A stretch of DNA of 64,000 nt. It comes from Spiribacter halobius (GTDB taxonomy: Bacteria; Pseudomonadota; Gammaproteobacteria; Nitrococcales; Nitrococcaceae). Both the position numbers and the translations under genes were made by a program. Positions 34,919 through 39,647 of the stretch are shown here, in pieces. Location: assembly GCF_020883455.1 (NCBI RefSeq), contig NZ_CP086615.1, forward strand, positions 3,836,501 through 3,900,500. Direction: 5' to 3'. The notes below the pieces were generated by a model. The model did no database searches. It had not been told where the DNA came from and saw only the letters and a list, made by a program, of their open reading frames with translations. Position 1 is the stretch's first letter; each line of letters opens with the position of its first letter.

Positions 34919-35524
34919 ATGATCGCCAGCGGACTCGACTACCGCAGCACGCGCTTCCTCATGAGCGCCCCGAACCCCGAGCAGCTGCCGCCGGACGAGG
35001 GTGCCGAGGCGGCGTTTGCCGGGCGCTCCAACGCGGGCAAGTCCAGCGCCCTGAACGCCCTTACCGATCAGCGCCAGCTCGCCCGCATCAGCAAGACCCC
35101 GGGGCGTACGCAGCAGATCAACGTCTTCCCGGTCACCGATCACCAGCGCCTGATCGACCTGCCCGGCTACGGTTACGCGAAGGCCCCGGCGGCCCTGCGC
35201 GCCCACTGGCAGCAGACCCTGCCACGCTATCTGGAGACGCGCCGCAGCCTGCGCGGGCTGGTGCTGATCATGGACATCCGCCATCCCCTGACCGACAGCG
35301 ACCGCCAGATGCTCGCCTGGTGCGCCGCCGCCGGCCTGCCCGCCCACATCCTCCTCAACAAGGCCGACAAGCTCCGCCGCGGCCCCGCCGGCAACGCCCT
35401 GCAGAAGGTCCGCGCCACGCTGGCGCGCGAGTTCCCCGGGACGAGCGTGCAGCTGTTCTCGTCGACGGTGCCGATGGGCGTGGACGAGGCGCGCGCCCGG
35501 CTGGACGATTGGCTGGCTGGCTGA
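34919..35524 (+). CDS. engB: Ribosome biogenesis GTP-binding protein EngB (YihA/YsxC)
   Basis: A 201-residue GTPase for 50S assembly: G1 AGRSNAGKSS, G2 region KTPGRTQQINVF, G3 DLPGYGYAKAP, G4 NKADKL and G5 FSST. Normal family length. GGAG precedes the ATG. It is convergent with polA across a 444-bp gap, the same arrangement that holds spf in Escherichia and ersA in Pseudomonas. Confidence 0.95.
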   Translation: MIASGLDYRSTRFLMSAPNPEQLPPDEGAEAAFAGRSNAGKSSALNALTDQRQLARISKTPGRTQQINVFPVTDHQRLIDLPGYGYAKAPAALRAHWQQTLPRYLETRRSLRGLVLIMDIRHPLTDSDRQMLAWCAAAGLPAHILLNKADKLRRGPAGNALQKVRATLAREFPGTSVQLFSSTVPMGVDEARARLDDWLAG

Positions 35525-35595
35525 GCCACGGCGGCGGCACGCGCTTCGAGGGTTAGCCTTGAGGGTTTGGCGCGCGAGCTCGGCGAGTGAGTTCA

Positions 35596-35680
35596 AAGTG
35601 GCAAGTTCAAAGTTCAAAGCCCCCTGCCGGGGCTCTGTGCAACAGCGCCCCTCACCCTTTGAACTTTGAACCTTGAACTT
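35596..35680. repeat. TTCAAAG inverted repeat
   Basis: AAGTTCAAAGTTCAAAG (about 35603-35619) is mirrored by CTTTGAACTTTGAACCTTGA (about 35658-35677), with an earlier GAGTTCAAAG (about 35590). The arms enclose a C-rich 40-bp loop. It is A+T-richer than its surroundings and looks like an inserted intergenic repeat or a hairpin ending the engB transcript. Confidence 0.6.
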
Positions 35681-35686
35681 CCAACT

Positions 35687-35734
35687 CCGGGGTTTTTTCT
35701 TGTCGGCCAACCGGCCGACAAGAAAAAACCCCGG
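35687..35734. repeat. Perfect 22-bp palindrome, 4-nt loop
   Basis: The arms (35687-35708 and 35713-35734) are exact inverted copies: CCGGGG, six T, CTTGTCGGCC, loop AACC. It can act as a terminator in the minus direction and as a very stable cruciform or hairpin in both. Confidence 0.85.
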
Positions 35735-35761
35735 GAAGCCATGGGGGCTGGCTACCCGGGG
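35723..35761 (-). terminator. Terminator of the predicted small RNA
   Basis: On the minus strand CCCCGGG (35761-35755), 19-nt loop, CCCGGGG (35735-35729), then six T. Its distal arm is shared with the perfect palindrome at 35687-35734, so two alternative hairpins compete. Confidence 0.75.
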
Positions 35762-35849
35762 TAAGTGTGACCCGGCCCTGGGGGCGGGGCCGGGTCCATT
35801 GGCCCGCTATGCAAAAGGAGGGAGTAGCGGGCCGCGCCGGGCACTGGCG
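35723..35849 (-). ncRNA. Predicted Spot42/ErsA-position small RNA
   Basis: Minus strand, about 127 nt, between polA and engB as for spf and ersA. Hairpin 1 (arms 35825-35833 and 35801-35809, GGCCCGCTA/TAGCGGGCC, perfect 9 bp) shows a 15-nt loop CUCCCUCCUUUUGCA; CCUCCUUU is complementary to a Shine-Dalgarno sequence. Hairpin 2 is CCCGGCCC/GGGCCGGG (35771-35794). It ends in a Rho-independent terminator (35723-35761). Position, length and C-rich loop parallel Pseudomonas ErsA (about 130 nt). There is no reading frame of note. The start point is inferred from the promoter-like sequence; it could instead be processed from the polA 3' end. Confidence 0.65.
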
Positions 35850-35855
35850 CACCTG

Positions 35856-35885
35856 TTATGACTACAGCCGGCGGGCGGAAGTTTC
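35856..35885 (-). promoter_or_regulatory. Sigma-E/AlgU-like promoter candidate for the small RNA
   Basis: Minus strand GAAACTT (35885-35879), 16-bp spacer, GTCATAA (35862-35856), compared with the GGAACTT-N16-TCnnA pattern of envelope-stress sigma factors. ErsA of Pseudomonas is AlgU-dependent. The match is imperfect. Confidence 0.35.
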
Positions 35886-35968: not shown

Positions 35969-38674
35969 TCAGTGCGCCTCGTCCCAGTTGTCGCCGACGC
36001 CGATCTCCACCTCCAGCGGCACGGCGAGCTCCGCCGCGCCGGCCATGTACCGGCGCACCTGCTCGCCGACGGCGTCCACCGCCTCCGCAGGCACCTCCAG
36101 CACCAGCTCGTCGTGCACCTGCATCACCAGCACCGCACCATGGCCCGCGCGGGCCAGCCACTCGTCCACACGGATCATGGCGCGCTTGATGATGTCCGCG
36201 GCGGTGCCCTGCATGGGGGCGTTGATGGCGGTGCGCTCGGCGTACTGGCGGCGCTGCTGGTTGCGGCTGGTGATCTCCGGCAGATAGAGCCGGCGGCCGA
36301 ACACGGTCTCCACGTAGCCACGCTCCCGGGCCTCGCGGCGGGTACGGTCCATGAACGCGCGCACCCCGGGATAGCGCTCGAAGTAGCGGTCCACGTAGGT
36401 CTGGGCGTCGCCGCGCTCGATGCCGAGCTGGCGCGCGAGCCCCCAGGCGGACATGCCATAGATGAGCCCGAAGTTGATCGCCTTCGCCGCCCGGCGCTGC
36501 TCGCCACTCACTGCCTGGGCCTCGACGCCGAACACCTCCGCCGCGGTGGCGGCGTGGATGTCGCGGCCCTCGGCGAAGGCGCGCTTCAGGCCCTCGTCGC
36601 CGGAGAGGTGGGCCATGATGCGCAGCTCCACCTGGGAGTAGTCGGCGGCCAGCAGGCGGCAGCCCTCCCGCGGCACGAAGGCACGGCGGATGCGCCGGCC
36701 CTCGGCGGTGCGCACCGGGATGTTCTGCAGGTTGGGGTCGGACGAGGAGAGCCGGCCGGTGGCCGCCACGGCCTGATGGTATGAGGTGTGCACGCGGCCG
36801 GTGCGCGGGTGGATCAGCGCCGGCAGCTTCTCGGTGTAGGTCGAGCGCAGCTTCGCCACCGCCCGGTGCTCGAGGATCAGCCGCGGCAGCTCGTGGCCCT
36901 GGGCAGCCAGCTCCTCGAGCACCGCCTCGGCGGTGGAGGGTGCGCCCTTGGGGGTCTTCTGCAGCACCGGCAGCCCCTGGCGCTCGTAGAGAATCTCCTG
37001 GATCTGCTTCGGCGAGCCGAGGTTGAACGGGCCGCCGGCGGCGGCATGGGCCTCGGCCTCCAGGCGCTGCATGGTCTCGGCGAGCTCGCCGCTCTGAGTG
37101 GCGAGAAGCTCCGGGTCCACCCGCACGCCGGTGCGCTCCATGCGCGAGAGCACCGGCAGCAGCGGCATCTCGATGTCCTCGAACACCGCTCGCGGGCCCG
37201 GCCGCTCGGCGAGCCGCGGCCACAGCGCCTGATGCAGGCGCAGCGTGATGTCGGCGTCCTCCGCCGCGTACTCCGTGGCCGCGTCCAGCGGTATCTGGTC
37301 GAAGGTGATCTGTTTCGCCCCCTTGCCTGCCACCTGCTCGAACGAGATGGTGCTGTGGCCGAGGTAGCGCTGGGCGAGGCTGTCCATATCGTGGCGGCTG
37401 GCGGTGGCGTCCAGGCAGTAGGACTCGAGCATGGTGTCGTAGCGCACGCCATCGAGCCCGATGCCGTGGTGCGCGAGCACGCTCATGTCGTACTTCAGGT
37501 TCTGGCCCACCTTGGCCCGCCCGGGGTCCTCCAGCAGCGGGCGCAGGCGCTCCAGCACCCGTTCGCGGTCGAGCTGCTCGGGCCCGTCCGGCCCGCGGTG
37601 GGCAAGTGGCACGTAGGCGGCATGGCCCGGCTCCACGGCCAGACACACACCCACCACGCGGGCATCCATATAGGCAAGGCTGTCGGTCTCGACGTCGAAG
37701 GCGAAGAGCTCCGCGCCTTCCAGGCGCGCCATCCAGGCATCCAGCCCGGCGTCGTCCTGGACGCACTCGTAGCGGGCCTCGATGCGCTCGCTCTCGGGCT
37801 TGCCGGCGTCCGGGTCCGCCTGCTGCAGCTCGCCGAGCCAGCTGCCGAACTCCAGCTCGCGGTAGAGCTCGGCGAGGGTGTCGTTATCCGGCTCGCCGAG
37901 GCGGATGTCGCCCGGGGCGAGATCGAGCTCGACGTCGCAGCGAATGGTGGCGAGCTCCCGGGAGAGGGCGAGGTCCTCCAGGTGCTCGCGCAGGCTCTCG
38001 CCCACCTTGCCGCCGATCTCCCCGGCGTGGGCGATGACGTCATCCAGCGACCCGTACTCGCCGAGCCACTTGGCGGCGGTCTTCGGGCCCACGCGCGGCA
38101 CGCCGGGGATGTTGTCGGAGCTGTCCCCCACCAGTGCCAGGTAGTCGACGATGCGCTCCGGCGGGACGCCGAACTTCGCCACCACGCCGTCCACGTCCAG
38201 GAGGGTGTTGGACATGGTGTTGAGCAGGGTCACCGAGTCGTTGACGAGCTGCGCCATGTCCTTGTCGCCGGTGGAGACCAGCAGCGGCATGCCGGCGGCG
38301 CGGGCCTGCACCGCCAGCGTGCCGATGACGTCGTCCGCCTCCACCCCAGGCACCTCGATGAGCGGCAGCCCGAGGGCCCTCACCAGGCGCTTCAGCGGTT
38401 CCAGCTGTACCGCGAGGTCGTCGGGCATGGGCGGGCGGTTGGCCTTGTACTGGTCGAACAGGTCGTCGCGGAAGGTGCGGCCCGGGGCGTCGAAGACCAC
38501 CCCCATGTGGCTCGGCCGGTAGTCCCCCATCAGCTTGCGCAGCATGCTCGCCACGCCGTAGACGGCGCCGGTGGGCCGGCCGGAGGCCGTCGTCAGCGGC
38601 GGCAGGGCATGGAAGGCGCGATAGAGATAGGACGATCCGTCCACCAGGATCAGCGGCGCTTCCGGGTCGCTCAT
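35969..38674 (-). CDS. polA: DNA polymerase I
   Basis: A 901-residue enzyme with all three domains. The 5'-3' exonuclease (about 1-290) has LILVDGSSYLYRAFHALPPL and LVSTGDKDMAQLV. The 3'-5' exonuclease is active in appearance (FAFDVETDSLAYMDA). The polymerase has motif A DYSQVELRIMAHLSGD, the O-helix region KAINFGLIYGMS and motif C MQVHDELVLEVP. It repairs gaps and removes primers. ATG 38674 follows GAGGAG; reading further upstream adds unrelated sequence. Confidence 0.97.
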   Translation of the reverse strand: MSDPEAPLILVDGSSYLYRAFHALPPLTTASGRPTGAVYGVASMLRKLMGDYRPSHMGVVFDAPGRTFRDDLFDQYKANRPPMPDDLAVQLEPLKRLVRALGLPLIEVPGVEADDVIGTLAVQARAAGMPLLVSTGDKDMAQLVNDSVTLLNTMSNTLLDVDGVVAKFGVPPERIVDYLALVGDSSDNIPGVPRVGPKTAAKWLGEYGSLDDVIAHAGEIGGKVGESLREHLEDLALSRELATIRCDVELDLAPGDIRLGEPDNDTLAELYRELEFGSWLGELQQADPDAGKPESERIEARYECVQDDAGLDAWMARLEGAELFAFDVETDSLAYMDARVVGVCLAVEPGHAAYVPLAHRGPDGPEQLDRERVLERLRPLLEDPGRAKVGQNLKYDMSVLAHHGIGLDGVRYDTMLESYCLDATASRHDMDSLAQRYLGHSTISFEQVAGKGAKQITFDQIPLDAATEYAAEDADITLRLHQALWPRLAERPGPRAVFEDIEMPLLPVLSRMERTGVRVDPELLATQSGELAETMQRLEAEAHAAAGGPFNLGSPKQIQEILYERQGLPVLQKTPKGAPSTAEAVLEELAAQGHELPRLILEHRAVAKLRSTYTEKLPALIHPRTGRVHTSYHQAVAATGRLSSSDPNLQNIPVRTAEGRRIRRAFVPREGCRLLAADYSQVELRIMAHLSGDEGLKRAFAEGRDIHAATAAEVFGVEAQAVSGEQRRAAKAINFGLIYGMSAWGLARQLGIERGDAQTYVDRYFERYPGVRAFMDRTRREARERGYVETVFGRRLYLPEITSRNQQRRQYAERTAINAPMQGTAADIIKRAMIRVDEWLARAGHGAVLVMQVHDELVLEVPAEAVDAVGEQVRRYMAGAAELAVPLEVEIGVGDNWDEAH

Positions 38675-38921
38675 CGCGGGCTCCTCAACCGGTACCAGGG
38701 CGGCTGTCGATCTTCCGACAAGCCGAAGTGGCCAGATCATACAAGCCTGCGCCCGGTTTCGACGCGACGTTGGCCTGCCGTCAGATCCCGCGCGTTCGCC
38801 CCCGTCCGCATCGGGCAGGGCCATGGCGGCCCCCGCAGCGCCACGGATATGGCCGCCCTTGCCGCGCGGGCGTAGAGTACACGGCCCGAAATCCGATACC
38901 GCCCGGAGGCATTCCGCGCCC

Positions 38922-39647
38922 ATGTCGAGGCAACCCCCTTTCCCGCCCCACGAGCGCACGCCCATCAACGATTCGCTGATGACCCGCGAGTCCTGGAAGA
39001 TCTTCCAGATCATGGCCGAGTTCGTGGAGGGCTTCGAGCGCCTGGCGCGGATCAAGCCCTCGGTGAGCATCTTCGGCTCCGCGCGGGTGGCACCCGATCA
39101 CCCCTGGTACCAGCTCGCCGAGGACACCGCCCGGCTGCTCTCCGACGCCGGCTTCTCGGTGGTCAGCGGTGGCGGCCCCGGAATCATGGAGGCCGCGAAC
39201 AAGGGTGCCCATGCGGGCAAGTCACCGAGCATCGGCCTCAACATCCAGCTCCCCCACGAGCAGGCCGGCAATCCCTATCAGGACATCGCGCTCAACTTCC
39301 GGCACTTCTTCTCGCGCAAGGTGATGTTCGTGAAGTACGCCTCGGCCTATGTGGTGCTGCCCGGGGGGTTCGGCACTCTGGATGAGCTTGCGGAGATCCT
39401 CACCCTGGTGCAGACCGGCAAGACCCAGCGCATACCGATCATCCTGGTGCAGTCGGACTACTGGCAGGGGCTGATCGACTGGCTGCGCGACCGCATGGCC
39501 GGCGAGGGCAACATCGACCCCGAGGACCTGAATCTCTTCCAGGTGCTGGACGAGCCTCAGGCAGTGGTGGACGCCATCTTCGACCACTACGAGCGCCGCG
39601 GCTTCGAGCCCTCCCAGGCCGAGCGGGAGATGCTGCTGGATCTCTGA
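38922..39647 (+). CDS. LOG-family Rossmann-fold protein (nucleoside monophosphate phosphoribohydrolase-like)
   Basis: A 241-residue TIGR00730 protein: SIFGSARVAPDHPWY, VVSGGGPGIMEAANKGAHA and YVVLPGGFGTLDELAEILTL, with the PGGxGTxxE active-site motif complete. Family members split the N-glycosidic bond of nucleoside monophosphates. ATG 38922 follows CGGAGG with a longish 12-nt gap. It is divergent from polA. Confidence 0.88.
   Translation: MSRQPPFPPHERTPINDSLMTRESWKIFQIMAEFVEGFERLARIKPSVSIFGSARVAPDHPWYQLAEDTARLLSDAGFSVVSGGGPGIMEAANKGAHAGKSPSIGLNIQLPHEQAGNPYQDIALNFRHFFSRKVMFVKYASAYVVLPGGFGTLDELAEILTLVQTGKTQRIPIILVQSDYWQGLIDWLRDRMAGEGNIDPEDLNLFQVLDEPQAVVDAIFDHYERRGFEPSQAEREMLLDL

Follow-up and report, generated by a model that had tools for sequence, protein, structure and literature searches.

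In E. coli the gap between polA and yihA (engB) is the seat of spf, the gene of Spot 42; to our knowledge, Spot 42 carries no C-rich loops. The known ErsA RNAs come from Pseudomonas, and it was in Burkholderia that anti-hemB received its name. In P. aeruginosa, the cited text places ErsA in the polA-engB gap and reports that sigma-22 raises its level and that it represses the porin OprD; a predicted pairing with anr, through an unstructured stretch rich in U, raises Anr and needs Hfq (PMC8575079). sX13, described in the cited sections as exclusive to Xanthomonadaceae, represses without Hfq, by C-rich loops acting on G-rich motifs near start codons (PMC3771888). This RNA is transcribed, is reported to accumulate under stress, and has been dissected by mutating its loops and its targets, most of the activity being traced to loops 2 and 3 rather than to loop 1 (PMC3771888). 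ncS04 of B. cenocepacia, which is anti-hemB, is visible on Northern blots, and Hfq binding has been reported for it; the same source suggests ribosome-site occlusion for some B. cenocepacia small RNAs (sRNAs), and in its table ncS04 shows no significant change in any of seven conditions, osmotic stress and low pH included (PMC5688073). Anti-hemB is also listed in a table of a 2012 Burkholderia paper (PMC3521395).

The locus compared here with these systems lies in a window of 64,000 nucleotides, the whole stretch of Spiribacter halobius DNA analysed, and appears by its sequence to encode a newly found member of this known kind of sRNA. Its seat is the minus strand of the gap between convergent engB and polA, two genes that had been named in the original prediction and that are borne out by domain matches. 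The features are the following:

34919..35524, plus strand: engB (yihA), PF01926, convergent neighbour of the sRNA
35723..35850, minus strand: sRNA of about 128 nt, whose true 5' end may sit a few nucleotides upstream
35834..35850, minus strand: hairpin 1, GCGCC-AGUGCCC-GGCGC, 5 bp, from the fold and the order-level alignment
35801..35833, minus strand: hairpin 2 (stem 1 of the original prediction), perfect 9 bp, arms 35833-35825 and 35809-35801
35824-35810, minus strand: hairpin 2 loop CUCCCUCCUUUUGCA, anti-Shine-Dalgarno-like
35766..35798, minus strand: hairpin 3 with a C-rich loop, from the fold, 6 of 6 pairs with two-sided changes
35723..35762, minus strand: hairpin 4, Rho-independent terminator with a C-rich apical loop, T-run 35728-35723
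35856..35862, minus strand: -10 element GTCATAA, 16 nt after the -35, first base 12 nt before the RNA core
35879..35885, minus strand: -35 element GAAACTT of sigma-E (RpoE/AlgU) type, consensus GGAACTT
35969..39070, minus strand: polA, DNA_pol_A, reading frame as listed with the real start probably further in, same strand as the sRNA and upstream of it

All three hairpins initially described are present, including the 9-bp stem with its loop, supported by both sequence and fold, and the closing terminator, which starts at 35762; the total is four, the 5' hairpin at 35850-35834 having been overlooked. The 5' motif was found in 39 copies in the loci searched, and the removal of three duplicates (L028-L030) left 36 order-level sequences from 35 genomes. 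These form alignment A1, which does not include divergent copies (L134 and L135, for example). On A1, two-sided changes occur in 16 of 23 pairs, a number that none of 500 shuffles attained, and 96.1% of cells are paired versus 27.5-44.6% with the partner slid; for further pair types, one of the five measures of covariation, 9 of 500 shuffles did as well. The gap alignment proposed as a check thus revealed a conserved RNA with strong covariation over 36 sequences. Hairpin 1 has 100% of its cells paired and 4 of its 5 pairs never vary, a near-invariance that is partly due to selection, as the 36 sequences were picked via the 5' motif.

The loops are conserved as well. In the hairpin 2 loop, CCCTCC is kept by 20/22 sequences of the same family and by 23/36 at the level of the order; it is absent from 2 and 13, respectively, and alignment A2 omits the two same-family sequences in question, L008 and L109. 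This loop contains CCCUCCUUU, which resembles the 16S 3' tail, and CUCCCUCCUUUUGCA contains the core of the 16S anti-Shine-Dalgarno sequence. Predicted apical loops with CCCC, CUCC or UCCC number at least two in 36/36 sequences and three in 29/36, whereas three such loops occur in 0 of 180 mononucleotide shuffles.

We consider it quite probable, from these sequence features and from the promoter described below, that the locus encodes a discrete repressor RNA of about 128 nt, activated by RpoE, whose C-rich loops cover G-rich ribosome sites. It would be a non-coding RNA with a sigma-E (RpoE) promoter of its own, close behind the end of polA, and would be made once envelope stress releases RpoE from the anti-sigma factor RseA. 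Its hairpins would expose C-rich apical loops, above all CUCCCUCCUUUUGCA, and pairing of these loops with G-rich ribosome-binding sites would block the translation of selected mRNAs, by analogy with sX13 in Xanthomonas.

A family sRNA that works mainly through the loops of hairpins 1, 3 and 4 (AGUGCCC, 4C/5C), that of hairpin 2 being secondary, is an unlikely alternative. The hairpin 1 loop is nearly invariant across the order, the hairpin 2 loop is variable in the genomes of family f2, and loops 2 and 3 had most weight in the cited sX13 work (PMC3771888); it is the 20/22 retention of CCCTCC in the family of the window RNA, and the recurrence of CCTCCC, noted by eye, in the hairpin 2 loop of many class matches, that argue for a leading role of hairpin 2.

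As for the targets of the proposed repressor, AGGAGGG-N3-10-ATG occurs at 77 sites and the reversed pattern at 23, a difference that ribosome sites in general would produce. Thirty of the 77 AGGAGGG sites were read, giving 24 frames of at least 60 amino acids. By eye these are a mixture, with Hsp20, Dps, HPF/RaiA, a TRAP-type binding protein and a lipoprotein among them, and no target class was evident among the 30 loci. Hydrophobic N-termini (crude hydropathy score of at least 2) were found in 5/24 loop-matching frames versus 15/84 long window frames, a weak test in which the background includes spurious frames, functions were judged by eye and 30 of the 77 sites were covered. The suggestion that mRNAs of exported proteins are targeted found no support in this mixed set of loop-matching start sites, within the reach of so weak a test; the OprD repression reported for ErsA would favour it. 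The hfq mRNA was considered and set aside as a target: its ribosome site pairs moderately with the loop, at -10 kcal/mol, a value obtained without a control.

The box GAAACTT-N16-GTCATAA, pointed out in the original prediction, is in place and ends 5 nt before the RNA core, which starts at 35850; the -35 of the window is one base off GGAACTT. A sigma-E-like box precedes 36/36 order-level sequences, its -10 starting 12-14 nt upstream of the core: the -10 is of GTC type in 36/36, while the -35 reads GAAC in 34/36 and GAAAC in two, the window and L121. A stock promoter and terminator scan called neither at the sRNA, its promoter part covering the sigma-70 type only. The genome encodes RpoE (305.9 bits), followed by RseA_N and MucB_RseB genes (rpoE-rseA-rseB), and GAACTT-N16-GTCTAC, the same kind of box, stands upstream of its own rpoE. 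It also possesses hfq, and the RNA may need Hfq. To note, CACTGAACT is found in 11/36 sequences (L001, L002, L004, L007, L009, L010, L011, L014, L023, L108 and L112), where the polA stop TGA apparently lies inside the sRNA -35; the stop could be placed for nine of them.

Covariance model R1, built from A1 only and with matches counted at E <= 0.01, scores 107 bits on the window RNA, itself in the training set. Among 369 genomes of the class it matches 100, with 110 matches (G000 and G003 are in R1 training); the class and phylum scans used strict filters and their E-values are rough. polA is found in 70 of the 110 loci, engB in 76 and either in 91. Under a rule written after the order-level set was seen, a sigma-E-like box lies upstream of 83 of the 110 matches, where random windows taken from these loci would lead one to expect 3.2. 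Ranked by R1 score, matches beside polA/engB and matches with a box amount to 24/26 and 18/26 at 45 bits or more, 16/17 and 13/17 at 40-45 bits, 24/28 and 22/28 at 35-40 bits, 20/21 and 18/21 at 30-35 bits, and 7/18 and 12/18 below 30 bits. The box is missing under the rule in 27/110, including both counted loci of f17, the sX13-bearing family taken as Xanthomonadaceae because of sX13 scores of 103-124 bits; one of these reads TGTTATA at the -10. With its presence across the order and the class, and with rpoE-rseA-rseB in the genome, the sigma-E-type promoter initially postulated is supported.

A second model, R2, was derived from 103 aligned hits (alignment A3, fitted to R1, so that pair counts lean to the model, to which 94 of the loci were submitted). 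Its training includes sX13 loci and two anti-hemB loci; none exceeds the ErsA cut-off, and several have sub-threshold ErsA scores. R2 matches 49/59 relatives and 55/80 named engB loci, the latter with 57 matches, although training genomes may overlap these loci. Of the 57, 55 lie within 130 nt of engB and the other two are further tandem copies in Nitrosomonas halophila; the box is found at 49/57 (2.5 expected), or at 43/48 once the listed training loci and L028-L030 are removed. In the phylum, R2 matches 29/398 genomes (E <= 0.001), of which 28 belong to the class and one lies outside it, the class share of the 398 not being given by the scan. Matches off the contig of the polA copy were also seen (G035:C14, G030:C15 and G053:C231; five in all in G035), and are possibly paralogues or chance.

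A constitutive RNA, or one driven by another sigma factor, with the box as a relic or read by another ECF factor, is rather improbable. The single -35 mismatch, the f17 loci that have no GTC -10, and the eight matches of the RpoE model in the genome, one of them above the cut-off, would be compatible with it. The box is, however, conserved at near-fixed spacing and shared in kind with that of rpoE, and relatives point to stress: ErsA is raised by sigma-22 (PMC8575079) and sX13 accumulates under stress in the cited reports (PMC3771888). In the anti-hemB branch, the absence of response of ncS04 in the tabulated B. cenocepacia conditions (PMC5688073) speaks against a general stress induction; it slightly lowers our confidence in an RpoE-activated repressor and in the joint family discussed below, and raises that in a constitutive RNA.

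The strand was not chosen from folding. The minus strand folds at -77 kcal/mol, versus -53.3 +/- 3.9 in shuffles (z -6.1), and the opposite strand gives an equally stable fold (z -6.1); the z-score was thus rejected as strand evidence, both strands being alike, and the choice of the minus strand relied on the T-run of the terminator, on the promoter and on the relatives. The f2 genomes number 14, among them an Aquisalimonas record (L030); 12 possess a polA-adjacent copy, always on the strand opposite to polA, and these copies bring their own box, as seen for the 11 in A1. Since they are flipped relative to polA, box included, the sRNA unit seems to move as a whole. In G005, where engB starts about 30 nt past the end of polA, no sRNA copy was found.

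That the hairpins merely form a bidirectional terminator and spacer is very improbable. engB and polA do converge, both strands fold equally well and a perfect inverted repeat straddles the T-run; yet a terminator needs no promoter, while a box lies 12-14 nt upstream in 36/36 sequences, the conservation extends beyond the stems to the letters of the loops, all 12 polA-adjacent f2 copies are opposite to polA, and tandem copies, mostly each with a box, exist elsewhere. Action in cis on the 3' ends of polA or engB mRNAs, rather than in trans, is more doubtful still: it would suit the 91/110 class matches beside either gene, but four beta-proteobacterial loci that were tested have hemB and not polA on the far side, families differ in the orientation of the RNA with respect to polA, and matches on other contigs exist.

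The inverted repeat is 22 bp long with a 4-nt gap (35687-35708 / 35713-35734) and may be a converging terminator for engB. Beside engB, at 35589-35687, short repeats of the TTCAAAGTTCAAA type are found in inverted arrangement, with 4 matches at 3 mismatches or fewer and none elsewhere in the window.

Nowhere in the window does a match attain the cut-off of its Rfam family. In a permissive Rfam scan of a 501-base stretch around the sRNA, sX13 (RF02232) was the best of 25 matches, full length, with 40.2 bits and E 3e-6 (cut-off 50 not reached), ErsA/Pseudomon-1 (RF01719) obtained 29.7 bits and E 7e-4 (cut-off 50 not reached), and anti-hemB (RF02837) 25.9 bits and E 6e-4 (cut-off 49.5 not reached). 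Scr3202 (35.2 bits), 6C (33 bits), miRNA families and more weak matches were taken as matches of composition. The sX13 model also matches in 22/59 relatives at E <= 0.1, one above the cut-off. Spot 42 (RF00021) has no match in the whole genome at E <= 0.001, and E. coli spf matches neither R1 nor R2; its homology was rejected. A search with the ErsA and spf models, advised with the original prediction, gave a sub-threshold score for the former and nothing for the latter: the shared gap stands, and Spot 42 is not a detectable relative.

The models grown from the window RNA were also confronted with named families. R1 gives 40.5, 34.4 and 46.3 bits on the sX13 loci L144-L146 (Rfam sX13 103-124 bits), and 62.3 and 50.3 bits on L168 and L177, both of which Rfam itself scores as anti-hemB above its cut-off; among 20 R1-matched loci submitted to Rfam, the sRNA of 18 bears no Rfam name. 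R2 recovers two ErsA loci, L338 (40.2 bits) and L340 (39.5 bits), with Rfam ErsA scores of 131.6 and 107.3 bits among these two. Seven of ten named R2 engB loci reach the anti-hemB cut-off, and ten R2 loci of the phylum scan comprise two ErsA, six anti-hemB, one sX13 and one unnamed. Within f164, taken as Pseudomonadaceae from its ErsA scores, eight genomes have an R2 match, whereas G214, G466 and G470 have none in the phylum scan; the G214 ErsA (Rfam 121 bits) obtains 16.9 bits with R1 and 23.2 bits with R2, at the right place. R1 and R2 jointly find sX13, ErsA and anti-hemB at the polA/engB/hemB locus, only weakly for the G214 ErsA. The expectation of an ErsA-like RNA beyond its known groups is supported by the recovery of Pseudomonas ErsA with R2, but the nearest named family is sX13.

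The likenesses differ from one family to the next. Like sX13, the window RNA lies downstream of polA, matches that model end to end, and is predicted to fold into several hairpins that present C-rich loops and to end in a terminator, with presumed pairing to G-rich ribosome sites. It differs by its four hairpins, versus three and an unstructured 5' region in the sX13 account (PMC3771888), and by its GTC-type -10, absent in the f17 loci. ErsA shares the polA-engB gap, a box of sigma-E/AlgU type and, in the Rfam consensus, C-rich hairpin loops; its 5' part is unlike that of the window RNA, and its predicted action on anr, through a U-rich region and with Hfq (PMC8575079), contrasts with the loop model proposed here. 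Anti-hemB (Burkholderia RNA 7; ncS04) also lies beside engB and has, in several loci, a C-rich stem 1 loop with CCTCCCTGA and, in several, a sigma-E-like box; it is shorter, and its four tested loci, in the engB-hemB gap, have hemB (PF00490) and not polA as far neighbour, versus the engB-polA gap for the window RNA. With Spot 42 the likeness is limited to the polA-yihA gap.

Several pieces of evidence, namely the cross-model matches, the place and the promoter, suggest that sX13, ErsA, anti-hemB and the window RNA are probably branches of one ancient, unrecognised family of sigma-E-driven RNAs with C-rich loops, present at the 3' flank of engB, with polA or hemB beyond, since early Gammaproteobacteria (in the broad sense, including Burkholderiales). 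If so, the envelope-stress response would have a class-wide non-coding output, where E. coli carries Spot 42, and results would transfer between sX13, ErsA and anti-hemB, as members of one family with mostly one promoter type. As far as the literature searches reach, this joint family is not in print: they returned no paper joining sX13 with ErsA, nor any two of anti-hemB, ErsA, sX13 and Pseudomon-1, and none combining Ectothiorhodospira, small RNA and Hfq; in the accessible text of one paper, sX13 and RpoE are each mentioned once.

The sole R2 match outside the class (G497:C5:79781-79913, 35.8 bits) could be another polA-locus RNA or chance. Tandem arrays were observed in three genomes: four copies in G223, all with a sigma-E-like box of their own (L288 2001-2749; G223:C33:13150-13898), four matches in G330 (L153), and three copies with boxes in Nitrosomonas halophila (L085 3625-4256).
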